Below are positions 1 through 63,112 of a stretch of DNA of 64,000 nt, in pieces. Origin of the DNA: Anagrus nilaparvatae (Eukaryota > Arthropoda > Insecta > Hymenoptera > Mymaridae). The stretch covers positions 1,444,501-1,508,500 of the forward strand of contig JAKSXM010000237.1 in NCBI GenBank assembly GCA_022575985.1, in the 5' to 3' direction. The notes under the pieces were generated by a model. That model did not search any database, was not told the DNA's origin, and saw only the letters and a program-made list of their open reading frames with translations. A program made the translations under genes and the position numbers. Each line of letters opens with the position of its first letter. Position 1 is the stretch's first letter.

Positions 1-3000
1 TTAAATATCTTTCGTCGGCCGATTCACTATACAGATCCGGGCATAGCCTTTTTTGCATTTTACCAGAATATTCTCGCATTCATTTTTCAATTAAAAAAAT
101 TTTGGCGTAAACACTATTTTAATTTAATCAAAAATAAGGACATGAGTTGGTAAGAACAACTTTGTGCAAAAGAAAGTTTATTGAAAATTCTTCTGAGAAA
201 CTTATGACATTATTTTTGATTATATTAAAAAATCGTTTGTGCTAAAATTTCCTAAATTGAATAAGGAATGCAGGACTACTCTGATAAGATGCAAAAAAGA
301 TTTTTCAATTTAATTAAAGAATGAAAAAAAAATAAAAAATTCGAAATGAAAATGGCACTGGTGCAGGACTCTAGAGGAGTTTCTTCATTTTTGGAATTAT
401 ACTAAATTAATCAAATAAATTGGAAAATTCTTTTAAATTTCGCTGTTTTAACATAAAAGCGTTTAAAGACATAAAAAGATATATCCTTATGTAAAATTCT
501 CTCTGGAATCCAAAATTTTTGTCAGATTCTGATTGGTCACGTGACGGGACAGGAAATATGAAATTTTTAAGAAATTAACTTTTAAGAGCTGTTATTTTTT
601 TCCTAAATGTTTTAAAAAACAATAATGTCTTTTTTCGCCAATAAAAATGAAGTTCAAAAAAAAATTTAAGCCTAGTTAGATGATTTTTCTTTAAGTAGTT
701 AGTAGTGTTGAACACGTTATCTAAGTCGGTTCCTATAATATCAACATGTACACGTGAATTTGAATTTGTATTAGTTTTATTTCTAGTTATTTTCATAGTT
801 TTTATTAAATTTAATAATTATTGAAGTAGACAAATGTAAAAAAAAAATTGGCAATTTGGAAATTTTAGGTATTTATGCATATTATAAGGTAGGGGGTCAG
901 TTTACCCAATCCGTTTTTTCCAATGATTTTTTTAGCCAAAGTACATTTTTCCCAAAGAAATAAAAAAATCATTTTTTTCCAAAAATATTTTTTATTGCTA
1001 TGAATTTACATTAAAAACGTACATTGTTCCCTATATTTCTCAAGTAAGACATAATATCATTATTTTCAACATAATTGTGATAGTTGTTAGTAATGTTGAA
1101 TAAACGTTCTTCTTTCTGTTTTCTTATGTGATCCTTATTTTTTCTAATTTTTTGGCCTTATTGCAGTTGACGATCGGAATCTGAATCTGCCAGATCTCCA
1201 GCGCCATTTAAAATTCTAATTTTATTCTAAACGTTTTTAATTTTTTTTAAATTTTGTATACCTAAAATTAAGTTAAAATATGTATTTTTAAAAAATTTAA
1301 AAATAAAAAATAATTAATAAAAAAAAATTTATTTTCGGAAAAAAGGACAGTTTTCTACAGAAAAAATAAGAAACATTATCTCTCACTTTTCTCGGTTTTT
1401 TTATAAGAGGCTAAAAAACAAAAATGGCCGCCAAAATTCAAGATTTCGCTCTAGAAGGCTAAAAATTTGGCTGGTGGCCTATTTTTGATAGTAATTTCAG
1501 AAAAAAAACGTTCGAGTCGTTTAGTTATCATTTCTAGACTACAAATGAAAAAAAAAATAAAAAAAAAAAATTTTTTACTATCTTTTAAGGTCATCAGGTC
1601 GTGCATTGTGTCATGCATTAAAAATTAATAAGGTCCAAAAATGTATCCTATTTTTTCTTATAATTTTTTTTAACTTTTTTGATGATAAAAAAGTAGTTTC
1701 TCGTCGAGTATGCTGCTAATGCTATTTATGATAGCAAAAGATACTATATATATGATGACATGAGTCATATCGGAGAAAATTTCCCAGATGATGGCAAAAT
1801 ATACTATAATAGTAAACAATTACCAATTTTATATAGAAAAGGATTTTCGTAATGGTACTCTAACTTATATACGAGATAATAACCGTGGTAAAGGGAATTT
1901 TATAAGGAATGATAATAATAATTTTATACATGGATATTAACATTATGTTAATAGTATAGTAATGATTTAAATAATAAAAGTGAGCATGATAATAAAGAGT
2001 TTATTTATAATAATAATAGAGGTAAATATAAAAGATGAGGAAGTACATCAAACAACAACAAACAAGGAAGGCAACTATGAAATTAATTCTTAAAACGTTA
2101 TATGACTCTAAAAGTAATTTAATTAAATGCGCTAATAAAGATGAGTCAACGAATACTCGGAGGGAGTAGGTATTATAGATACATATAATAAAAATAATAA
2201 TTTGCAGTTGCTTAAGTTCTTTTAGTTAAAATAGTCTTTTGCGTCAAAATTTTCATTTTTGTCCAAACAGTCACAATTGCATAAGATCTAGTACCCAAAG
2301 CCAATTCTCGCAAAACCTCAATGATACAATAACACTATTAATTTAATTATTATAAGTTAATTAAGGTGGCAAAAAAAGTAAAAAAAAAACATTGTAAAGT
2401 ATTGTTATTTAAACAACTTTTGTAAATATTTTTGTTAAATATTATTTTATTAATCTTTTTGTTCTTAAAACTAACCTTATTTTAACCCCCCTATTTTAAT
2501 AAAATTATTCTGTAAAATTTATAAAATATTTTTCTCCGTGTAAAATTCAAATAAAAAAGTATATACTGATATCAAAAAATTGTTAATTAACAATAAAATT
2601 AGTTAGGATTTTAAATCTATATTTATATAATTTACTGTGCATCATTTTATAAATAAAAAAAGTTAATTATATTTAATTCAAATTCTGATTCTTTATTTAT
2701 AAAATAATATTATATTTAAAAATACAAAAATTCCATAAATCTATACGAAATTATGTTAGGACTCTTAGTGTAAAACTTTACAGTACCTCAACTCTACGGC
2801 AGTTTTATATACATAGCATTATTTATGAGATTATTTTGTAAATATTTACTTGATGTAACATTAAACATGAATTTTGGCATAAATTTAAAATTTTGTGATT
2901 CAAAAAAAAAATGACAAATAAAAAATTTTAGCTGAGCTTAAAAAATATTGTAGAAAAAATAACGCTATTAATAATTAAAACTATAAAGCGTATAATATTA

Positions 3001-4390
3001 TACAACTAATCTTTGATAACTAAAAATTTTTTTTTGAAGAAAATATTAGTCACATTTTTTGTACTACAAAAGCAAAGATTTATTGCAAAAGAAAAAAGTT
3101 TCATAATTCTATATTTAGTTAATTATAAAGTTATGAATAAACAGTAATATATACTTATCAACTTTAGCCCTGGAAAATATACGGAGTGATTCATTTAAAT
3201 CAATGCACTCTAATATTTTGAAATTAAAGCAAAATAACAAAAAATTTTTCAAGTCAAAGTTGCTAGGTTTGGAGTTGAACATCTGATGACGGGCATAAAA
3301 TTTGCGCACAGGGAGCGGAGCCTTTTAGTGATTTTTTTATTAATATAAATTAATAAAGTCATCATTTAAAGATACTTTATCCGCTTGCATGTTGCCCTTG
3401 TATATATGAGCATTCATGTTTAAACATTTAATCTATTTCTTTGTTGTAATAGTTTTGTTTATTTATATTATATTACTGTAATACTTTAATTAATTGATAA
3501 TAAATAAGTTGGTAAATAATTTAATTATTGATTTATAATTAAATTCTTATAAATAAAAATTAAGTAAATTACAGTAAATAAATGTCGAAGGTCAGTATTT
3601 GGAGTGTAAAGTTCAGGAGATTGACCCTTTATTGACACCAGAATGGGACTTTCATAAGAATATAGGTAGAAATCTTTATTATTCAGGAAACATTTTTTTA
3701 CGCCCTGATATTTGAGTGAATGTTTATATATTTTCTTATTTGCTTGAAGCTGAATATATTTTTTTTTATATGTGAATCTTGCATTAGCCATGGAGTGTTT
3801 GTGAGCCTTAAAGACCCGAAAATTTCCATGACTGCACAGTTGTGCAAGTACAACTGGAAAACTTTGCCGACGAACCCAGTCGCCAACTTTGTCCCAAATT
3901 CTTACTGGGTAAACCCACTTTCAACCCCCCTTGATTGTTTACCACAAAGTGGAACTTCTTTTTAGGTATAACTTCAGTTTAGTACGTGCAGCCTACGAAA
4001 CTGACCGCTGCCTTCCCTCTTGCCTTAAGACGAGAGACGGAAGAAAGAGACGATAGAAAGCCCTTCTTCTATTTAGACAACAGAGTGGCCCTATTTTATT
4101 TCAGTTGTCAGGATTTCGCGATTTTCGATTTTTGGAACCACTTGCTCTGGCCTCCAAGTCGAGAAGGGTGGGTGCCACTCGAAGTAGCGCACACATCCAA
4201 AGAATGTGTACTGCACGGTATCTAACTCACCCACTTCCTCAACATGTCACAGAAGTACATATGGATAAAAAAACTTTAGAAGATGATAAGGAAGAGAATT
4301 TAGATCACAAGTCATTATTTGCATTTTGAGCAAGAGGAAATAAACATTTCTAATACTAATTCAATGAATGATTGCAGATCATATTTCTTT
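1..4390. other. AT-rich DNA without a recognisable gene
   Basis: Homopolymer-rich AT DNA with no frame I can defend. At about 1,700-1,930 on plus, two adjoining frames read in a coding-like way (motifs GENFPDDGKIYYNSK, then NGTLTYIRDNNRGKGNF) but are separated by a frameshift and match no family I know. At 3,780-4,250 the GC content rises clearly without a recognisable protein, which suggests a buried element fragment. Short open frames here are probably chance. Confidence 0.5.
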
Positions 4391-4396
4391 GAAAAA

Positions 4397-4867
4397 GTTT
4401 AATTGGAAAGTTTTGAATATATATTTGAATGAGATGTCAAAAGACGCATCAAATTTACCTCCATGCAAAGCAGAACTGAAATGCTAAATTTAAAGATTTC
4501 AAATTTGTGGTGTAATGCTGATTTCAAATATCCAACAGATTCAAATCCAACTGATTACAGTTGGAAATTAGTTGATGTTAAATATGATTTTGTCTGGTTT
4601 AAAGGCAATCAGTTACCAATAAATTTCAAAGGCATTTTAATACATGGTGATGATGATTTTTATGTTGATGGTGATGATGATCAACAAGAGGGTGAGTAAT
4701 AATTTATATTGCCTTAATTTACTCTTGCTTTATTTATAAAAATTGATTTATATTTTGTAGAACTAAATGATACTGGTATAGATTTATCTAGTACTGGCGA
4801 TCCATCAATCAACGTTAAGAAAGCAGAAAATAATGAATCATCTGGTATTTATATAATTTCAAATTAA
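4397..4867 (+). pseudogene. Decayed spliced fragment of a mobile-element-type protein
   Basis: The plus strand first reads NLPPCKAELKC. A one-base frameshift then leads into a frame containing LWCNADF, a Trp-Lys-Leu-Val-Asp segment and VWFKGNQLP. This resembles the 'LPPT..AL..H..RA..Q...W ... GW.L.DG ..P' tail of transposon-associated proteins that recur in arthropod genomes. That is a family memory, not a search result. The second frame ends at a good donor (AGG|GTGAGT at 4691/4692). After a 69-base intron with acceptor TTTTGTAG at 4760, the same frame continues with an acidic, Ser/Asn-rich tail to a stop near 4865. The conserved intron suggests an old genomic copy, not a retrocopy. The frameshift makes it non-functional. 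Confidence 0.4.
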
Positions 4868-6187: not shown

Positions 6188-7420
6188 TTACATATATTCT
6201 GGTATGATGTTGGTATAATTCATGGATACATATTTTTGGTTGCTGTCTTTTGTATTATAGTTCAATTTATTCCTTTTCTGTCTCTTTCTAATAAGTATCA
6301 TATTCTCACTGTATCCGTTATTAATTGCTGTGGTTTTTATTACATTTATTTTCCTCTCATAGCTATTATTGTATAATGGTATCTTGGTTGCCCTATATAT
6401 TAAACTGTTGTATGCGGCTATTTTACGTGCATTAGGATAGTTTGAGCTCGCATGTATTATTGTATCAGTATTTGTGGGTTTTCTGTATATATCAAATTTT
6501 AAACTATTGTTGTTTTTGGTAATAGTGATGTCCAGAAAATTTATGCTGTTGTTCTTTTCGTGTTCAATTTCAAATTGTATATTTTTGTGTATACTGTTTA
6601 GATAATTTTTGAAATGATCCGCTTGCCTATTACTTCCGTTAAATATGATAGGTGTCATCTACATATTTTCTATAAAAAATTATTTGCTGAGCCCATTGCG
6701 AGTCCCTTATTCTGCCTGTAATATTTTTTGTTAAATGTAAAATAATTTAGCTGTAATATTGTATATAAAATGTCTATTAGTTGTTGAATTTCTAATTTGC
6801 CCATATTATTTTTTGTTAGATTTTGCTTGATTATTTTTAATGAATCGTCAACCGGGATATTTGTGTACATATTTTTAAAGTCGAAGGAAATCAATTTATA
6901 TGTTAGTAGCATTTTAATATTTTTAACCTATTTCTACGAAATCATATACATTTTTTATACCTTTGTTGTTAGCTAATTTTATATTGCTTGCTAAAATTTG
7001 TTTTAAATTTTTACTCGCATTATAACCTAGGGATGTTTTGTGGTTCATGGCCGGTCTTATAGGGTGTCTTTCTTTATGTAACTTGATTAAACTATTGAAT
7101 GCAGGCGCTGATGCTTTTATTGGTTTTAAGTATCTCCTTGTTCGTCAAATATTCTGTCACTTGAGCTAATTTGTTTGTTTAGATCCTTCAGAAAATTTTC
7201 TAAAGATCTTTCTCAAAATTCACTAATGTCGCTGTTTTCTATAAATGTATCTACTTTTTTGTTGTATGAATTTTCTTTTATTATTACCGCCGTTTTACCT
7301 TTGCCAGCCTTTATTATAATTCACTTATTTTTTAACAAGTTATTCTTAAGATTTTTTAGTGTTTTATTCTCTTCTGTGTATAGATTCTCATTATTATTTA
7401 TGCGCTTATTGTTTTTCTTT
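6188..7420 (-). pseudogene. Penelope reverse transcriptase (N-terminal and RT parts)
   Basis: Copies element RNA into DNA. From about 7,420 down to 6,920 broken frames show HKERHPIRPA and LGYNASKNLKQIL, the Penelope N-terminal to finger region. From 6,912 an 80-residue frame shows FDFKNMYTNIP (catalytic motif A, normally FDVKNLYTNIP) and GLAMGS (motif B). A deletion and frame change follow. YRKYVDDT (motif C, catalytic Asp pair present) lies at about 6,635-6,660. The frame starting at 6,658 then carries NFLDITITK and the DIYRKPTNTD thumb motif. The catalytic aspartates survive, but the reading frame is broken at least twice. Confidence 0.85.
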
Positions 7421-14899: not shown

Positions 14900-15960
14900 A
14901 CATCATCTTGAGTTTGTAGCAGGTTAACACATCACCCCCTGGAGAAATTCATATCCACTCATATTTTAAGTTCGTAAAGTTAGGGCGGTATGTTTCCATA
15001 AAAATATTTTGTTAACTATAGCTCCGCTTTTGGGTACAAAAGATGGAAATTTTTAAGTTTTTAAATTTGCATAAAATAAGCGAGATAAATATTAAATTTT
15101 TATAAAAGCTTCAGCCTTATGAAGCAAACATAATTTTTTTTTCGGCTTTCATTAAATGATAAAAATTGAGATAAAAATTTGTGGTTTCTATAAATGATTG
15201 ATTGTCTGCCCTATGAAGCAGACATAAATTTTTTTTTCGGCTTTCATTAAAAGTTGAAAATGATTGCAAGATCTAATGATGATCAAAACGACAATTTAAG
15301 TATGAAATACTGAATCACTAAATTCACCTTTGATTGATGGAAGAAGTTATAAATATATATGTACTTTTCATTTTATTTTCAATACTGATTTCGTGATTCA
15401 CATAAAAATTTAAAAAATAGATGTTATTATTATATACTGTATAGAAATAAAAAGCTTATTTTTATAAAACTTCTTCTTTAATGAATAATAAATTTAACGG
15501 TTCAATATTTCTATTTTCTATTCTCATTTTGGTATTAAAATTTTACAGTCATTTTTAAATTTGGATAAAGTAAACGAGATAAAATTTGTATTTTTATAAA
15601 CGCTTGATTGTTAGCCATATGAAGCAGACATTAATTTTTTTTCGTCTTTCATTAAATTTGAAAATTATTACAAGTTCTAATGATGATCAAGTCAACAATT
15701 TAAATGTGAAATATCGAATCACTAAGTTCATTTTTGATTAAAGAAGAAGTTATAAATACATATGTATTTTTCATTTTTATAGTATTTTCAATAATACCTT
15801 AGTGATTCTGATAAAAATTCAAAAAATGGATGTTCTTATTATATATACTCTAGAAATAAAAAGCTTATCTTTATACAACTTCTTCTTTAATGAATAATAA
15901 ATTTAGCGGTTCAATATTTCTATTTTGTATTGTCATTTCGATAATTAAAATTTTGCAGTT
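14900..15960. repeat. Tandem repeat, unit about 416 bp, two copies plus a partial
   Basis: The word ATGAAGCAGACAT followed by a T run and TTTCATTAAA occurs at about 15,120, 15,202 and 15,618. The segment from 15,190 to 15,605 recurs at 15,606-15,960 with moderate divergence (shared GATTGT...CC.TATGAAGCAGACA, CTAATGATGATCAA, GAAATAAAAAGCTTAT and TTCTTCTTTAATGAATAAT). No ORF. It is an old local duplication or a small satellite seed. Confidence 0.7.
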
Positions 15961-39347: not shown

Positions 39348-39727
39348 ATAATTCGTTTTATATACTGTACCCACATAAAATTTTGTAACTATACAATTAA
39401 ATAAAAATGTATTTAAAAAAAAATGTATTTAAAATTTAAAAAAAATATTATCTCATATTAATAAAGTCTAATAAATTAAACTTTTTTCCCTTTTTTGTAT
39501 TATTCCATTCCCCTGCTTCTTATACCTAACCCTGAATAAAAAAAAAATGCATTGTATTTTTTATTTTAAAAAACGTTAAAAAAAAATCATTATTTTTTAT
39601 AGTCTATATCTTTTTTCAAAAATTTATGTATACAAGAAACCATAGTTTAAAAAATTTTTTGCTTTGTTTTTTTTTAAATACTAAAGTTTACCTTCAAAAA
39701 TACTGTTAAAAAAACATTAAGATCTGA

Positions 39728-40347
39728 ATTTCCCAAAAAAACAGATTACGATTTATTATCATTAAAAAGTATATGCCCTTACGAGTATGTAGACTCGAGA
39801 GAAAAGTTAAATGAGTGCAAGCTACCCGAAAAAAAGCATTTTTATTCTTCATTGACAGATTCGTACATAACTGACCAGGAATATTTTAGAGCTCAACATA
39901 TTTGGAATAAATTTAACTGTAGAACGATAAATTTAATTTTCCAAAACTTTCGTGATGATATGATGAAATAAATTAATTTAGACCCAACGTGTTACATCTC
40001 TTTAAAAGGCTTTACATTTGACGCTGCACTTAAGTATACTGGCGTATCTTTGGAACTTTTAACTGACATTGATCATTTAATGTTTTTTGAACGCGCTATA
40101 CGCGGGGGTTTATGTACATCAAATATTAATTATGTGAAAGCAAATAATACTTATATGCTCGAATATAATTCAGAGCTTCCAGACGTTTGCCTGACTTATT
40201 TTGACATTAACGCGTTATATTCTACATCTATGACGGATTTTTTACCAGTAGGAGAATTTATTTTTTTAGAAAACTTTGAAAATTTTGAGGTACAAAACGT
40301 CTCATATACATCACCTGTAGGCTATGCAGACTTGCCAATGTGTCCTA
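39728..40347 (+). pseudogene. Polinton-type protein-primed DNA polymerase B, first lineage, middle part
   Basis: Family B, protein-primed polymerase (DNA_pol_B_2 type) of Polinton/Maverick or adintovirus-like elements; it would replicate the element. Visible: PYEYVDSREKLNE, LPEKKHFYSSLTD, FDAALKYTGVSLELLTDIDH, RAIRGGLC, VKANNTYML and YFDINALYSTSM (palm motif A with its catalytic Asp). One in-frame TAA lies at about 39,969. The gene stops exactly at 40,347, where a TIR-bounded insertion begins, and resumes at 47,463. The exonuclease N-terminus is not seen upstream. Dead copy. Confidence 0.85.
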
Positions 40348-40979
40348 CCCGGGTGAGAATTTACGAAGGTCTACGGAGATTTTTTTAAAAACGGAGATGA
40401 AAAAATACTCTTTAAATACTCCCGTTCGAGTGTACTCCGAACAAAACTCCTTTTCATGTCCGAAAGAATATTATAATGATATTAAAATGCAAGCGCCGTA
40501 AAGTTAATAAAAGCATATTTAAACATATCGGAATTTGCTCTGTATCAGATGTATTTACGTCAGATTTACTGTGTTTTCGGTGCTTAAAAAAACATATATC
40601 CTCCGTTACGAAGATTGAATAAATACTCCTCAGATATTTTAACAAGTAAAAATTCTGGTCTAAATTTTTCATAGTATGTTAGCGTATTCTTTCTCTATTC
40701 TTTCATAGATGGAATCTAATACTTTCGTATTATTTTAGACTTCGAAACGCTTCGAAAGCAAAGTCAGTAAAAACACTAAATAAATACTTTTACAGTCAAA
40801 AATATAAACGTAAAAATGAATAAAACCAGCGCATATTTATAAAAAAAAACCCAAAATAGTCCTTATAACTACTACGAAAATCTATCATTATAGTCCTTAG
40901 GAAATATTTTAAATCTGAATAATATACATCAGCGCGGAGCTGAATGCGAGTGTTAAAAAGTTGATCCGAAATAGTATTG

Positions 40980-43172
40980 ATTGAAGCATTTTACGACTGT
41001 GTCTTAATCGACACAAAATTTTAAAAATAATAAATTTTAGCTAAAATCATATAAATTTCTAATAATTTTAAGCAACGTTACAATGTTGTTCTGATATTCA
41101 AAAAATAGTTAAATCACCTTATATCATCGTTACATAAACGTGACAAATCGATAGCCCGTCCACCCTCGAAAGAGTATTATTTAGGTACTCTTTTAAACAC
41201 GTTCTCAATATAAAAAAATATAGAAATCATCGCATCGATGCAAAATAGAGTCTGGTAACGCCTCAAAAGAATCACTGAAAAAGTGATTTTTGAATACTAA
41301 AAGAATATTAAATCTGATTTGAAACGGATGAGAGTATATAATTCATAACATAGTAAAATCATCTTCGAAAGGCTATTTTTTGAAGCTTTTAAAGACTGGG
41401 TTATTACTGAAAAAAACTTGCAAAATTGATAAATCTCGGCTGAATTAATTTCAGTATTGAATTATTTTAATCACCGTTTTAATATCCTTAGAGTATTAAA
41501 AACATAGTTAAGTAAGGTTGAATTAACATTATCTACACGTGACAAATCGTTAGCCCGTCCACCCTCGAAAGAGTATTATTTAGGTACACTTTTAAACAAG
41601 TTCTCAGTATAAAAAAATATAAAAATCATAACATCGGTGCGAAGTAGGATAGGTATACGCATCAAAAGAATCACTGAAAACATGATTTTTGAATACTAAA
41701 AGAATATTAAATCTGCTTTGAAACGGATATGAGTTTATAATTCGCTAAATAGTAAAATCATCTTCGAAACGATATTTTTTGAAGCTTTTTAAGTCTGTGT
41801 TATTAATGACAAAAACTTGCAGAATTAAAAAATATCTGCCGAATTTATTTTAGTTTCTGCTCCTTTTGATCGCCGTTTTAATATCATTAGAATATTGTAA
41901 ACATATTAAGGGGAGGTTATTTTATTGTCGTTTACGTTTCACGTTTTTGCAGCCAGCCGACCCTCGAAAAACTATTGTTTAAGTATTTTTTCCAACGATT
42001 ACTGAGCAAGAAAAAATTTAAAAATCATCGCATCGATGCGAAGTAGGATCGGTATTCGCGTCAATAGAATCACTGAAAACATGATTTTTGAATACTAAAA
42101 GAATATTAAATCTGCTTTGAAACGGATATGAGTTTATAATTCGTTAAATAGTAAAATCATCTTCGAAACGATATTTTTTTAAACATTTTAAGACTGGGTT
42201 ATTACTGACAAAAACTTGCAAAATTAATAAATCTCTGCCGAATTTATTTTAGTTTCTACTGCTTTTGATCGCCGTTTTAATATCATCAAGATATTGCAAA
42301 CATAGTAACTCAAGGCTATTTCATTATTCTTTACGATTGTCGTCTTTGCAGCCAACGGTCCCTCGAAAAAGTATTGTTTAAGTATTTTTTCGAACGACTA
42401 CTGAGCAACAAAAAATTTAAAAATCATCGCATCGATACGAAGGAGGATCGATATTCGCATCAACAGAATCACTGAAAACATGATTTTTAAATACTAAAAG
42501 AATACTACATCTGCTTTGAAACGGATATGAGTTTATAATTCGTTAAATAGTAAAATCATCTTCGAAACGATATTTTTTGAAGCTTTTTAAGACTGTGTTA
42601 TTAATGACAAAAACTTGCAGAATTAAAAAATATCTGCCGAATTTATTTTAGTTTCTGCTCCTTTTGATCGCCGTTTTAATATCATTAGAATATTGTAAAC
42701 ATATTAAGGGGAGGTTATTTTATTGTCGTTTACGTTTCACGTTTTTGCAGCCAGCCGACCCTCGAAAAACTATTGTTTAAGTATTTTTTCCAACGATTAC
42801 TGAGCAAGAAAAAATTTAAAAATCATCGCATCGATGCGAAGTAGGATCGGTATTCGCGTCAATAGAATCACTGAAAACATGATTTTTGAATACTAAAAGA
42901 ATATTAAATCTGCTTTGAAACGGATATGAGTTTATAATTCGTTAAATAGTAAAATCATCTCCGAAACGATATTTTTTGAAGCTTTTTAAGACTGTGTGAT
43001 TAATGACAAAAACTTGCAAACTTAAAAAATATCTGCCGAATTTATTTTAGTTTCTGCTCCTTTTGATCGCTGTTTTATTATCATTAGAATATTGTAGACA
43101 TATTAAGGGGAGGTTATTTTATTGTCGTTTACGTTTCACGTTTTTGCAGCCAGCTGACCCTCGAAAAACTAT
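40980..43172 (+). repeat. 399-bp satellite array, left block
   Basis: The word CATCGATG (or a one-base variant) recurs at 41,233, 41,632, 42,031, 42,430 and 42,829, exactly 399 bases apart each time. The units share GAAACGGATATGAGTTTATA, GTAAAATCATCTTCGAAACG, TTTTGATCGCCGTTTTAATA and CCCTCGAAAAA.TATTGTTTA. The left-most units are more diverged. No ORF. Confidence 0.9.
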
Positions 43173-43430
43173 TGTTGGATGCGCTGAGACCGAATCTGGC
43201 ATCCAGATTTCAAAATTCAATATGGCGGGCTTAATATTGGCTAATTTTCAAAATAATTCCCTAGATTTTTGAAATAATAAAAAAAATACTTTTAGGCGTC
43301 TATTAAGGAATTATCGGGTGCGGTGAGACTGAATCTGGAATCCTAATTTCAAAATTCAATATGGCGCCCTCAAAATTTTCCAATTTTTGAAAAATATGAC
43401 AAATTTAATGCCTACATGCTTTATACACCC
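43173..43430 (+). repeat. Two ~139-bp repeats at the array edge
   Basis: GCGCTGAGACCGAATCTGGC at 43,181 and CGGTGAGACTGAATCTGGAA at 43,320 start two copies that both continue through TTTCAAAATTCAATATGGCG. They separate the satellite from the inverted array and have no counterpart on its right side. Confidence 0.75.
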
Positions 43431-45783
43431 ACATGACCTTTAGTTGAGGTTTACAAAATAAACTCAATACGAAAAGCCTTACATTAAAATAACCTAAGGA
43501 AATGGTATAAAAAAAAACGACACGTCAAGCCTTACACAAACATAACCTAAGGTTGTGGTCTATACTAAAAAAACGACAAGTCAAGCCTTACACTAAAATA
43601 ACCTACGGAAATGGTCTATACAAAAAAACAACACGTCAAGCCTTACACTTAAAGACACGTCAAGCATTACACTAGCGCAAGCACTAGCATAACCTTTGGA
43701 AATAGGCTGCATTAAAAAAAACGACACGTCAAGCCTTACCTAGCGTAATCTAAGGAAGTTGTCCATTATAAAAAATGACACGTCAAGCCTTACATTAACA
43801 TAACCTAAGGAAGCTGTCTATTATAAAAAATGACACGTCAAGCCTTACACAAGCGTAATCTAAGGAAGTTGTCTATTATAAAAAATGACACGTCATGCCT
43901 GACACTAGCGTAACCTTAGAAAGTGGTCTATTATAAATAATGACACGTCAAGACTTACACTAACGTAACCTAAGTAAATTGTCTATAATAAAAAACGACA
44001 TAATAAGCATAACACTAACATAACCTAAGGAAGTAGGCTATAATAAAAATACGCCACATCAAGTCTTACACTAACATAACCTAAATATTGTCTATAACCA
44101 AAAACGACACGACCAGCATAACACTAACATAACCTAAGGAACTTGTCTATTATAAAAAACGACACGTCAAGCCTTACACTAGCGTAATCTAAGGAAGTTG
44201 TCTATAATAAAAAACGACACGACAAGCCTTACACTAGCGTAACCTAAGGAAGTGGTCTATAGTAAAAAATGATACATTAAGCCTTACACTAGCGTAATCT
44301 AAGGAAGTGGTCTATAATAAAAAAATGACAAGTCAAGCCTGACACTAGCGTAACCTTAGGAAGTGGTCTATTATAAAAAACGACACGTCAACCCTTACAC
44401 TAGCGTAACCTAAGGAAGTAGGTTATGATAAAAAACGACATGAAAAGCATTACACTAGCGTAACCTAAGGAAATATGCTTTAATAAAAAAATGAAAATGT
44501 AATTTTTTATAATAGACTACTTCCTTAGGTTTCGCTAGTATAAGGCTTGACGTGTTATTTTTTATAATAAAAAACTTCCTTAGGTTACGTTAGTTTAAGA
44601 CTTGAAGTGTCGTTTTTTTAATATATCCTACTTGCTTAGGTTATGCTATCGTAAGGCTTGCTGTGTCATTTTTTATTCTAATCAGCTTCCTTAGGTTATG
44701 TTAGTGGAAGGCTTGACGTGTCGTTTTTTTAATATAGCCTACTTCCTTAGGTTACGCTAGTGTAAGGGTTGTCCTGTCGTTTTGTATTTTAGACAACTTT
44801 TTTAGGTTACGCTAGCGTAAGGTTTATCGTGTCATTTTTTATGATAGAAAAAATCCTTAGGTTATGCTAGTGTAAGACTTGTCGTGTCGTTTTTTGTTAT
44901 AGCCTACTTCCTTAGGTTACGCTAGTGTAAGGGTTGAGGTGTTACTCTTTATTATAGACAACTTCCTTAAGTTACGCAAGTGTAAGACTTTCGTGTCGTT
45001 TTTTATTATAGCCTACTTCCTTAGGTTTCTCTAGTGTAAGGCTTGACGTATCATTTTTTATAATAGACAAATTCTTTAGGTTACGCTAGTGTAAGGCTTG
45101 TCGTGTCGTTTTTTATGATAGAAAAAATCCTTAGCTTACGCTAGTGTAAGGCTTGTCGTGTCGTTTTTTGTTATAGCCTACTTCCTTAGGTTACGCTAGT
45201 GTAAGGTTTGAGGTGTTACTCTTTATTATAGGCAACTTCCTTAGGTTACGTTAGTGTAAGACTTTCGTGTCGTTTATTATTATAGCCTACTTCCTTAGGT
45301 TTCTCTAGTGTAAGGCTTGACGTATCATTTTTTATAATAGACAACTTCTTTAGGTTACGCTAGTGCAAGGCTTGTCGTGTCGTTTTTTATGATAGAAAAG
45401 TTCCTTAGGTTACGCTAGTGTAAGGCTTGTTGTGTCGTTTTTTATTATAAACAACTTCCTTAGGTTACGCTAGTGTAAGGCTTGTCGTGTCGTACTTTAC
45501 AATAGCCTACTTCCTTAGGTTACTCTAGTGTAAGGCTTTACGTATCATTTTTATAATAGACAAATTCCTTAGATTAGGCTTGTGTAAGGCTTGACGTGTC
45601 ATTTTTTTAATATAGCCTACTTCCTTAGGTTACGCTAGTGTGAGGCTTGTCCTGTCGTTTTTATTTTAGACAACTTCCTTAGGTTACGCTAGTGTAAGGA
45701 TTGACGTGTCGTTTCTTATTATAAACAAATTCCTTAGGTTACTCTAGTGAAAGGCTTGACGTGTCACTTTTTATAATGGACAA
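43431..45783. repeat. Head-to-head array of ~56-bp repeats (foldback structure)
   Basis: About 18 direct units of a ~56-bp repeat (GACACGTCAAGCCTTACACT, AGCGTAACCTAAGGAAGTTG, TCTATTATAAAAAA) run to about 44,495. About 22 units follow in the opposite orientation to 45,783. The turn-round is only 10-20 bases (AAAATG). A single strand could fold on itself over more than 1 kb. No ORF, no spacer-repeat pattern of a CRISPR. Confidence 0.9.
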
Positions 45784-46450
45784 ACATTGTAAGTCAAGGC
45801 TATTTCATTATTATTTACGTTTGTCGTCTTTGCAGCCAGCCGACCCTCGAAAAACTATTGTTTAGGTATTTTTTCGAACGATTACTGAACAAGAAAAAAT
45901 TTAAAAATCATCGCATCGATGCGAAGTAGGATCGGTATTCGCGTCAAGAGAATCACTGAAAACATGATTTTTGAATACTAAAAGAATATTAAATCTGCTT
46001 TGAAACGGATATGAGTTTATAATTCGTTAAATAGTAAAATCATCTTCGAAACGATATTTTTTGAAGCTTTTTAAGACTGTGTTATTAATGACAAAAACTT
46101 GCAGAATTAAAAAATATCTGCCGAATTTATTTTAGTTTTTGCTCCTTTTGATCGCCGTTTTAATATCATTAGGATATTGTTAACATAGTAAGGGAAGGTT
46201 ATTTTATTGTCGTTTACGTTTCACATTTATGCAGCCAGCCGACCCTCGAAAAACTATTGTTTAAGTATTTTTTCGTCGATTACTGAGCAAGGAAAAATTT
46301 AAAAATCTTCGCATCGATGTGAAGTAGGATCGGTATTCGCGTCAACAGAATCACTGAAAACATGATTTTTGAATACTATATCTGCTTTGAAACGGATATG
46401 AGTTTGCCGACCCTCGAAAAAGTATTGTTTAATTATTTTTTCGAACGAGT
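45784..46450 (+). repeat. 399-bp satellite array, right block
   Basis: CATCGATG words at 45,914 and 46,312 with the same flanking words as the left block. The second copy has a ~150-bp internal deletion after CTTTGAAACGGATATGAGTTT, where it joins CCGACCCTCGAAAAAGTATTG. Resumption is out of register with the left block by about 70 bases. Confidence 0.85.
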
Positions 46451-46607
46451 ACTAAGCAACGAAAAATTACGAAGCTTAATGTTTGCTTAGAATAAATGTT
46501 GTTATAATAATTTTACTGCTCTGATTTTTCGTCTAAATCAAAAAATTTATAAGTTCATTTATAACTCTTGCTCTTTTATATATCAAATTTTTATTATTTT
46601 GCATGCA

Positions 46608-46695
46608 GTCATAATGGAGCAGTGGATAAAGTGTTGGACTATCAAGCGGTGGACTCGGGTTCAAATCCTCATCAAATCATTAAAAAAAAAAAAAA
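46608..46695 (+). repeat. tRNA-like SINE head with A-rich tail
   Basis: TGGAGCAGTGGATAAAG (A-box-like) and an exact B box GGTTCAAATCC 45 bases later, then TCATCAAATCATT and a run of A. The T-stem has a mismatch and the anticodon stem does not pair, so this is a tRNA-derived SINE or pseudogene inside the 7.1-kb insertion, not a functional tRNA. Confidence 0.45.
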
Positions 46696-47462
46696 ATAAA
46701 AAAATATTTAATATATTATTATATCATGGCTATAAAAATTAAAATTTTTTTTTTTTAAATATTTTTTACTTATTAAAAAAATATTTTTATAACGTTTACA
46801 TTATTATTACAATACTTTTTCGTAGCTGTTTAATTATCGGCACGCTGTTTTTTATTAAATAAAATCATATCGTAACGATGATTATACAACCTCCGAATCA
46901 GTGCTTTTCGAATATATATACGCAGCTTAATTTTATGATGAGTCAAAATATAGAGAATAAGAAAAAATATCATTTCAGTGCTCTTACGATGCTAATATTT
47001 GAGCTTCGAAAAAGTATTTTTTAAGTATATATTCGCAGGTGGTTTGAATAAGTTTACTAACAAGTAAATTATTTTTTCAATGTTTAGGCGGTACAGAAAA
47101 CAAGGATTGAAAAAGTATTCTTTTAATATTTTTAAGCACTTTTTTTACGCCAAGCTATGAATAAATAAAATTAATCACGGGCAAATATATAAGAATAAAT
47201 ACTTTTTCCATATTAGAACGATGCCGTTTACCAATGTTTAAATTACTACCTTAAAAATATTCTTTCTCACTTTTCTTTTTACTACTATGAAGTAAGAAAA
47301 AATATTATTTTTATATGTTAACTATCATCGTATCTTAGACTATTTGTTCCAGGGAATATTAAAAACATACTTTTTCGAGCAAAATTCTTAGATTTTTCGA
47401 CCCTCGATCATTGTACGGAAGTACTCTTAACATATTCTTTCCAAGGTCCATTCTCACCCGGG

Positions 47463-48503
47463 TATGCGAGCTAAACCCCAGGAAGTAAAACTGAGAAGCT
47501 TTTGGCCGACTTGAACGATAAATTCAACTATAATATTCATTATAAAAATTTAAAACAAGCGATTACGCATGGAATTCAAGTTAAAAAAATTCATAAAGTA
47601 ATAAAATACGCTACAAAACCATGGCTACGACCGTATATTAAATTTTGCATATTAATGAGGAAAAATGCGCCTAACGAATTCGAGAAAAACTTTTGAAAAA
47701 ATCTGTTAAATGGGCTATTCGGAAAATTTTGTGAACAAATACGTAAATAAAGTAAAATTTATTTATCCGGAAAATGGTCTGGTCGATGCGGCCTTGAAAG
47801 TTTGATTTCCCGACCAAATTTTAAAAGAATCGAGCTTTTTGACGATGATTTTGCAGCTATCGAGTTAAATAAGCTATTAATCAATTTTAATAGGCCGATT
47901 TACTTAGGTTTTTGTATTTTAGATTTGCCAAATATATATTAAATAAATTCCACTATGATTTTATTTGAGCCCTGTGCGGGCAAAGTGCTGAAATGGTGTA
48001 TTTAGATACAGATTCACTGATATACTGATTTAGGGAGATAGACCCATATAGAATTATACGCGAAAATACAGAAAAATTTGACGAAAGTAATTTTTCACCA
48101 AAAAATAAGTTTAAAATTCCGATTTTAAATAAAGGCGCACTTGGATTAATGAAATGCGAAACATCTGATCGTATAATTTGGGAAATCGTCACGATTTGTG
48201 CAAAAATGTATGCGGTTTCAACAGAGGACGATTTGGAAATGAAAAGAGCTAAGGGTGTAAAAAAATATAACTGAAAATAAATTAAGATTTGAAAATTATA
48301 AAAAATGTATTTTTGAAAATGAAATTACTACATGTGAACAGTCTAGCATTAGATAAAAAAATCATAATATTTATACAATTTTTGAAAAGAAAGTTGCATT
48401 GCGATTTAAAAATGATAAAAGACGGCATTTTCCAGATTCTGTGGAAACTCTGCCCTGGGGTCATTACAAAATAAAGGAAATTGAGGGTGGGGAAATTCAA
48501 TGA
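47463..48503 (+). pseudogene. Polinton-type DNA polymerase B, first lineage, C-terminal part
   Basis: Continues the gene cut at 40,347. After a frameshift: LLADLNDKFNYNIHYKNLKQ, a KIHKVIKYA-type segment and the W-LRPYI motif. Then SGRCGLESLISRPNF, an LNKLLINFNRPIYLGFCILD-type stretch (motif B region) and VYLDTDSLIY at about 48,000, the catalytic motif C with both Asp intact. GALGLMK, AKMYAV, KRAKGVK and the terminal LPWGHYKI follow. At least three frameshifts or stops. Convergent with the integrase on minus. Confidence 0.88.
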
Positions 48504-48600: not shown

Positions 48601-49470
48601 CTATTTCACAAAATAGCTATCGGATTTTGTTTTTAAAATTTTCTCAACAAGATAAGTATCATCATATTTTGTTTTTAAAATCTCATATTCGTAAAAAGCC
48701 CCGGATATTAAATTATCTTGATAGTCTTTTAAGATATATGTCACTGGATTCGTTGTTTGAAATTTTGCGATTGTAAAAAGCTCTGTACTCCAAGAAGGCA
48801 GATATCCCTTTTCAAAAATCGCCTTGTATCGAGAGATGCTTACTTTGTCCCCTACTCGATATTTAGGTTTCTTAATACGTTTAAAGTCGTAATTACAAAC
48901 TGTACTTAACAATATTTTTTCGTGTTTTTTCTTCACGTCCTTTGGCTTCATATTTATCGTGCGATTTTTTCTTGCATTATATTTTGAAACAATTTCTTGT
49001 AGAAAATTTATGTATTTGTAACTTCCATTGAGACTAAATCTCTTCCATATTATTCCTTTGAGAGTTTTAATTGCGCGTTCCGCCATAGAGGCTATTAAAT
49101 GCGTAAGACTTGAAAACATGTTTATATTATACTTTTTTATTAATTCTTTAATTTCCTTATTATAAAATTCAGTACCTTGGTCAACCTGCAGATTTTTTAC
49201 ACGCGTTTTCGATTCTTTTAAAATTTTTTAAAAAGCCCTGGTTACATCTTTTGCATTTTTTGATTTCAAAGGTTCGGCCCATAAATATTTCGAAAATTCT
49301 TTTATTACTACTAAAACATAATTATATCCTGAATTGAATCTACTGTACAACTGTAAATCCATCAAATCTGCCATTCAAAGATCGTCCAAACCAAGAACAA
49401 CAACATGTCTTCGTGGAAAATTTTTTCTGGCAGGTTTGTGAATTTCGTACATGACCGCAGCTTTTAACAT
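48601..49470 (-). pseudogene. Polinton integrase, first lineage
   Basis: Retroviral-type DDE integrase used by Polintons to insert their DNA. From ATG at 49,470: KPARKNFPRRHVVVLGLDDL, then TGA where the family has Trp-Gln, then ADLMDLQLYSRFN (first catalytic Asp), KEFSKYLWAEPLKSKNAKDV, a second stop, LQVDQGTEFYNKEIKELIKK (second Asp) and SMAERAIKTLKG (Glu). The open 172-codon end has KYRVGDKVSISRYKAIFEKG, TYILKDYQDNLI and TYLVEKILKTK, the Polinton C-terminal domain. The catalytic triad is intact; two stops disable it. Tail-to-tail with PolB, 98 bases apart. Confidence 0.9.
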
Positions 49471-62021: not shown

Positions 62022-63112
62022 AAATTGTATTACGATACAGAGCACCCTCTGTCGTTCGTTGGAACTCGGTATTTATTTCAGAAAACAAATTACAAATTTG
62101 GCAGATATAAAACAAAAAGTAAAAAATTGGTTGAGCGAAGAGGACGTATAAACATTGCATAAATCGGTTAGAAAAAATTTTCCTCGACGTACGTACAACG
62201 TATCGAATATTTATGTCATAAGACTGTTTTGAAGCTGAGTTGGCAGATTTTCGATCGATAAAATCTTTCAACGACAATTATTTTATATTTTTTTGTTTTA
62301 TTCGTCAATGATGCTTTGAGTAAATTTTTATGGGTAGAGCCGCTAAAAGACAAGTCTGGTTCTTCCACAGCTGGCGCTCTAAGCAAAATTTTCACCGAAA
62401 ACCCCGATAAACTGCCGGTGGTTACCCAAACAGATAAAGGCCGTGAGTTTACAGCTAAGGTGGTACAAAATGTTCTTAACGAGTTTAATATCGAGTTTCG
62501 TTTGAATCGGAATCCTAACGCTAGTGGAATAGCAGAACGTGTCATTCAAACTATAATAAATCATTTGTGGCGTTATTTTACGCGTAAAAATACACGCAGA
62601 TACATTTATGTTTTACAATCTATCATACATTCTTACAACCATACCGTACATTCAGGTACAAAGATGACTCCTGCTAGTGTGAAATTATATAACGCTTACG
62701 TTGCCCGCTCCAATATCGCAAAAAGCTATACATGGTGCAATAAAAAAAATTCAAAAAAACACCAAAATACAGCGTTGATTAAGTAGTACGCATCAGTCCT
62801 GCTCCAGACGTTCTTCAAAAAGGATACGAAAGTAGGTATACTTTAGAATTATTTAAAATTGCACAAGTTTCTACTGCAAGGCAACTACTAGTGTATACTT
62901 GGAAGATTTGGATGGTGTAATTCTAGACGGAATTTACTACGAGGAAGAACTTTGTCATGTCAGGAATAACTTGAACGAATCTGCATTTGAAATTGACGAA
63001 ATTTTACAAAAATAGGGTCACGGTAAATCTAAGAAATACCTCGTTAATAGGCACGGTTATCCTGCTAAATTCAACTCTTGGATTCGGGCTAATGATTTAA
63101 TTTATATCTAAA
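62022..63112 (+). pseudogene. Polinton integrase, second lineage, with chromodomain-like tail
   Basis: Start of the family's N-terminal domain: LYYDTEHPLSFVGTRYLFQ; then VKNWLSEEDV, TLHKSVRKNFPRR, ELADFRSIKSFNDNY (first catalytic Asp). FLWVEPLKDKSGSS, VVTQTDKGREFTAKVVQ (second Asp), ASGIAERVIQTIINHLWRYF (Glu), YVLQSIIHSYNHTVHSG. The 156 codons from 62,316 are open. Further on: QKGYESRYTLELFKIAQV, and last FEIDEILQK, stop, KKYLVNRHGYPAKFNSWI, a chromodomain-like end as in Polinton/Gypsy integrases. The DDE triad is preserved, but several frameshifts and stops lie around it. Distinct from the integrase at 48.6-49.5 kb. Confidence 0.9.

Follow-up and report, generated by a model that had tools for sequence, protein, structure and literature searches.

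The question raised by this locus is what the stretch at 40348-47462 represents, bounded as it is by two short inverted sequences inside a decayed DNA polymerase gene. The window, meaning the whole 64,000 nucleotides analysed, lies in contig C337 of a 488.7-Mb assembly of 393 contigs, which was used for a census of related sequences. We place the probability at roughly 0.9 that it is a single inserted copy of a non-autonomous DNA transposon bounded by terminal inverted repeats (TIRs). As the preliminary description had it, its ends form a perfect pair of the 13-bp sequence CCCGGGTGAGAAT, at 40348-40360 (+) and 47450-47462 (-), with a TA on the outer side of each (40346-40347 and 47463-47464), these being the left and right copies of the target duplication. 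The window contains 2 matches to the TIR at up to 2 mismatches, compared with a mean of 0.31 in shuffled sequence, and 4 of 100 shuffles also reach 2. The pair taken alone is thus only moderately unlikely, and the strong evidence is that of the genome census.

The host sequence offers less help. Upstream of the insertion, a protein match identifies a decayed DNA polymerase B (PF03175) at 39708-40346 (+), of which 39708-40106 matches P0001, a protein of 206 aa that carries PF03175, at 72% over 148 aligned positions. The last ORF before the insertion matches PF03175 weakly (E 0.003, 17 bits, less than the curated 25.8). The next PolB part was placed by eye at 47475-47693 (+); Pfam gave no match for this stretch, and neither did P0001, which ends before it. 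Of the split polymerase gene first proposed, then, the upstream part is borne out by the PF03175 match, while its downstream part and its assignment to the Polinton kind were made by eye alone. It had also been claimed that the reading frame is maintained from one side of the gap to the other if a single TA is counted. With that count the two frames are out of phase, and stop codons follow just downstream, so the PolB frame is no evidence for the insertion.

Genome-wide, the end sequence occurs at 273 places at up to 1 mismatch, compared with 89 for a reversed control. When the first arm bases are added to the ends (up to 3 mismatches), there are 99 left-type and 46 right-type matches and 0 + 0 in the reversed controls. 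These give 40 pairs with ends no more than 25 kb apart, 35 of them spaced by 2.7-12.3 kb and the other five by 0.6, 17, 19, 20.5, and 20.8 kb. The detailed comparison covers 20 fetched paired copies and the window copy, 21 copies of 2.67-9.39 kb. The order of arm, satellite, and arm is the same in 20 of these, the exception being L019 with its reduced right side. In 19 of the 21 copies the left arm differs from its consensus by 0-0.5% (L018, 0.88%; L012, 4.76%), and in 19 the right arm differs by 0.1-0.72%, the two others being L015 at 3.9%, which has a nested insertion, and L019 at 50%, the right part of which is deleted or rearranged. The element therefore belongs to a young family of nearly identical copies that has spread recently. 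Finding no other copy with these inverted ends had been named beforehand as one result that would speak against the element; dozens were found. The insertion in L015 is about 1.4 kb long (element positions about 2333-3732), has long inverted ends, and sits in the right arm. Two pairs of census places share identical 11-base flanks: at C196:18639562 and 18652426 the ends face apart, as in an inverted duplication or an assembly artefact, and C113:17720382 and C273:974605 are 99.8% alike over 447 bp, as in a haplotig or a duplication.

The flanks of the paired copies describe how the family inserts. A perfect 2-bp duplication is present in 32 of the 40 pairs, compared with 369 of 1560 (24%) in a control of mismatched pairs, and the duplicated dinucleotides are TA (14), AT (9), TG, GA, and AA (2 each), and TT, AC, and CA (1 each). 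Among the remaining eight pairs, three match over 3 bp (CGA at C342:16305794, TAT at C26 and at C195) and five mismatch; three of these five, with ends 19-21 kb apart, may be wrong pairings. In 91 unique flanks (of 99), the left end adjoins TA in 32 cases and AT in 22, each more often than the window background would give (p 9e-11 and 2e-4), and a C precedes the dinucleotide in 39. On insertion 2 bp are duplicated, and occasionally perhaps 3, with TA and AT favoured. As the perfect duplications are TA in 14 pairs, AT in 9, and others in 9, insertion is not TA-specific, and from the TA-targeting element first envisaged the 2-bp duplication and the preference for TA survive, but the strict use of TA does not. 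A Tc1/mariner-type element with strict TA targeting would account for TA being both the commonest duplication and enriched at the left end. Mariner is strict for its TA target, however, and with 18 of the 32 perfect duplications being something other than TA, we consider this reading very unlikely. An ISL2EU element, of the PHIS superfamily, would fit the nine AT duplications and is just as improbable, as TA is commoner than AT here and the frequent preceding C departs from the A|AT|T that extracts of PMC4482050 give as the setting of the AT duplication in ISL2EU.

Direct evidence for insertion with a 2-bp duplication comes from two other copies, L019 and a copy ending near C218:1903.8 kb, both of which are inserted at the same TA of one abundant repeat. 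The corresponding unoccupied site, with a single TA, was found at 7260 + 7468 = 14,728 places (up to 3 mismatches), compared with 0 + 5 for the reversed control. One unoccupied copy lies where L062, a 5-kb stretch beyond L058, begins. On it, the left-hand flank of L019 can be aligned up to base 591 (83% over 113) and the right-hand one from base 590 (81% over 281), while the flanks of the C218 copy align to 591 (78% over 276) and from 590 (90%, 20 bases only). In both cases the flanks overlap by exactly TA, and both copies were thus inserted with duplication of these 2 bp. The search for empty sites that had been proposed at the outset has therefore succeeded at paralogous sites of two other copies; the insertion of the window copy rests on its TA flanks and its membership of the family. 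Neighbouring sites of the abundant repeat (e.g., L062 45-59) are often about 465 bp apart. A Helitron was also considered. Helitrons have neither TIRs nor a target duplication, and the element was rejected as one because the census and the unoccupied sites show that it has both.

The interior of the window copy, all of it given on the + strand, is made up of a left arm of 813 bp (40348-41160), the left part of a 399-bp satellite array with about five monomers (41161-43170), an M block of two copies of a repeat spaced about 139 bp (43171-43474), an F block of 55-bp units (43475-45783), the right part of the array with a truncated monomer among its units (45784-46466), and a right arm of 992 bp (46471-47462), both arms being non-coding. 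Tandem Repeats Finder (TRF) places 399-bp tandem repeats at 41162-43176, and both the satellite and the foldback array are where they had been described. Within the F block the array turns round, with direct units at 43711-44472 and inverted units at 44503-45783. The inner left arm (element 620-762) is 67% like the satellite monomer and may be read as a decayed edge monomer. A motif of the monomers, TCGAAAAAGTATT, occurs in the window element 11 times forward and 3 times reversed (up to 1 mismatch), in the monomers and, as direct and inverted copies, in the right arm. The right arm also holds a tRNA-like stretch followed by A-runs (46596-46715), SINE-like by eye, in which ARAGORN found no tRNA.

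It might be argued that the interval is a free satellite array hit by unrelated elements, with inverted ends that match by coincidence, given that the array is tandem and does contain other elements. The arms, the array order, and the fold-back junctions are nevertheless repeated at separate places flanked by matching 2-bp sequences, and there are sites without an insertion, so this explanation is barely credible. A second proposal is that the element seeds genomic satellite, arrays growing inside its copies and then escaping as long arrays. Monomer number does differ from copy to copy, and in L023 and L027 a pair of monomer types is repeated on the right-hand side of the fold-back block. Against seeding, the monomer matches listed (40 of 149 candidates scored) form short runs, most of them in census copies, and monomers keep their positional identity: among 94 full monomers, those of one copy are on average 7.9% apart, whereas the nearest monomer in another copy lies at a median of 0.5%, and monomer clusters follow rank in the array from copy to copy. 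We regard seeding as unlikely. Monomers that match by position across copies show instead that the array arose in a progenitor and has since been carried along as a whole, with later changes such as those in L023 and L027, so that the satellite travels as cargo of the transposon. One stretch with F, M, and family satellite (L064 about 1-4681, C317:4.12M) has no census end near it, and its satellite stops in mid-monomer.

The fold-back block seems to have a different history. The preliminary description counted the fold-back array as cargo of the element's own, yet it resembles a piece of L063, a free-standing foldback element. The inverted termini of L063, 98.2% alike, extend over at least 896 bp, up to the limit of the fetched stretch, and hold M-type repeats of 137 bp; enclosed by them is an F-type array of 55-bp units. 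L063 thus has the long inverted termini of tandem repeats by which foldback elements are recognised. In the carrier itself, the block contains the inverted 55-bp array, but M lies on one side only. Scoring 40 out of 203 candidates put the M block at 29 places at 98-100%, the window included, and at one more at 92%, and all 30 except C317:4121479 are within reach of a census end. At 69-87%, at least 17 further M-like matches lie elsewhere, several of them as inverted pairs (same 40 of 203 candidates). Both blocks are missing in 4 of the 21 copies (L012, L015, L017, and L018), L028 has F without M, and the length of the F block differs between copies. Searches with exact words recovered the junction on the left of M in 14 copies and that on the right of F in 12. 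The junctions recovered interrupt the monomer at one and the same position and differ by few substitutions, apart from L025, which has a small deletion beside the left one. Like junctions at the same monomer point argue for a single capture, and the block looks like a captured piece of another element.

Older relatives indicate which part of this plan came first. Two copies whose TIR is CCCGGATAAGAAT share the plan but lack the fold-back block; their arms are 84-91% and their satellite 73-88% alike, and their duplications are TA and TT. When 20 interior sites of other left-arm ends were probed, 12 ran into satellite (76-89%), 2 showed the arm only, and 6 showed neither; three of these six, read further, continue the left arm for about 770, 118, and 220 bases. 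At only one place, L031, does A or C follow the exact end, and this is an older copy whose interior has been deleted. Because the relatives and most of the probes carry the satellite and the CCCGGATAAGAAT pair has no fold-back block, the arm-satellite-arm plan seems, on these comparisons, to be older than the fold-back block. In L058, likewise read further, no right end like that of the family was found, and six of its ORFs gave no Pfam match. An ORF of 396 codons is among those of L059 and L060.

The cargo had been described as something other than a transposase, and the window copy indeed has no long ORF, the longest being 83 codons from stop to stop (among ORFs of at least 80 codons). A longer copy with a transposase was to be looked for as well, and this was without success. 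No transposase ORF was found in the 21 copies (where the longest stop-to-stop ORF has 145 codons), in the copy at C317:7.35M (L061), or in the two older CCCGGATAAGAAT copies, where an ORF of 966 codons in L032 lies outside the element; the copy at C317:9.07M, taken as two pieces with the middle left out, has no ORF of 100 codons. Nor did the copies and interior probes examined reveal an autonomous partner bearing these ends. The family thus has what defines a non-autonomous TIR transposon, namely ends common to dispersed copies, a 2-bp duplication, and no transposase seen in its copies. The satellite of the C317:7.35M copy contains a nested insertion (L061 5033-5638) with a 202-aa ORF that, by eye, is like the GIY-YIG endonuclease of a Penelope-like element.

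CMC transposons (CACTA/Mirage/Chapaev, CACTA-like) have CACTA ends, short TIRs, and repeated subterminal motifs. It is possible, if doubtful, that the family is a non-autonomous member of this group, which would combine a short TIR, duplications of 2-4 bp, and subterminal repeats. The 13-bp TIR, the 2-bp duplications together with the three pairs matching over 3 bp, and the motif in both orientations in the right arm are all in keeping with this, and duplications of 2-4 bp are given for CMC in the extracts of PMC4482050. Unlike CACTA, the ends begin with CCCGGG, and no transposase was seen in the copies examined that could connect the family to the group.

How such an element might move can be outlined tentatively. 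A transposase supplied from elsewhere, probably of the DDE kind, would bind the ends in trans and move the element by cut and paste, and array length would change through unequal exchange or slippage. The fold-back block would derive from a foldback element through one capture event, in a progenitor that subsequently gave rise to the spreading lineage. The motif common to the monomers and the right arm may bind the transposase or host proteins. A more speculative proposal, which we hold as a little less probable than the CMC assignment, joins two ideas: that the ends CCCGG(G/A)T(G/A)AGAAT and the A+T-preferring duplications of 2 bp, perhaps 2-3 bp, belong to an undescribed transposase lineage or to a CMC lineage that lost its CACTA ends, and that the satellite is kept for a transposase-binding motif, TCGAAAAAGTATT, in each monomer and in both orientations in the right arm. 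If this were true, the tandem array would be a selected binding platform, through which a multi-kb gene-less element, even one with a foldback piece, competes with shorter ones.

The best reading of the element is that of an elaborate variant of known satellite-carrying TIR elements. Tandem-repeat-containing MITEs have reportedly been seen in a clam (Donax) and in termites. Non-autonomous elements that carry satellites are well described, according to excerpts of PMC9659126, PMC12628747, and PMC4079207. In the excerpts of PMC12628747 and PMC9659126, tandem-repeat MITEs such as miDNA4 of Xenopus are likewise non-autonomous TIR elements with an internal satellite of variable monomer number. The carrier differs from these in its long arms, its different TIR, duplications that are not restricted to TA, the foldback piece nested inside it, and its size, since 2.7-12.3 kb in 35 of 40 pairs is far from the roughly 400 bp quoted for MITEs in an excerpt of PMC9659126. 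Tetris, a foldback element of Drosophila virilis, also has internal tandem repeats linked to satellite DNA and in this is like L063; passages of PMC4079207 give it TIRs of up to 1,735 bp and duplications of 8-10 bp, in contrast to the 13-bp TIRs and 2-bp duplications of the carrier, in which the foldback is nested cargo. Helitrons and Helentrons such as DINE-1 and CgHINE share the non-autonomous state and central satellite-like arrays (PMC9659126, in part). In a text search of the literature for the end sequences, no transposon-titled paper was among the matches listed; the 13-mer occurs in one of these, a paper on human DNA2 (PMC5030094).

The family offers a clean and recent example of a transposon spreading satellite DNA as its cargo. 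Its arrays allow comparison of individual monomers between many insertion sites, so changes in satellite copy number after transposition can be traced on a known scaffold. The nesting of transposon, satellite, and foldback piece shows that large gene-less DNA is still able to spread, and the duplication pattern together with these ends is a sign of a transposase that has yet to be assigned.

A few further observations concern the ends and the rest of the window. In the window there is a second tandem repeat at 15168-15959 (period 409 bp, 1.9 copies) and, by eye, two integrase-like ORFs at 48601-49227 (-), for which a Pfam search gave no match, and at 62262-62786 (+). Ends with other following bases occur at 16 places, compared with 6 in the reversed control, and 6 of the 16 are arm variants. 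Four of the other ten, with a TTCATCA-like continuation, were fetched. One of them, L066, does not fit the repeat shared by the others, and its flanks do not match; the remaining three (L065, L067, and L068) lie in a different repeat, where CCCRGAYAAGAAT-like ends face outward 91-103 bp apart.
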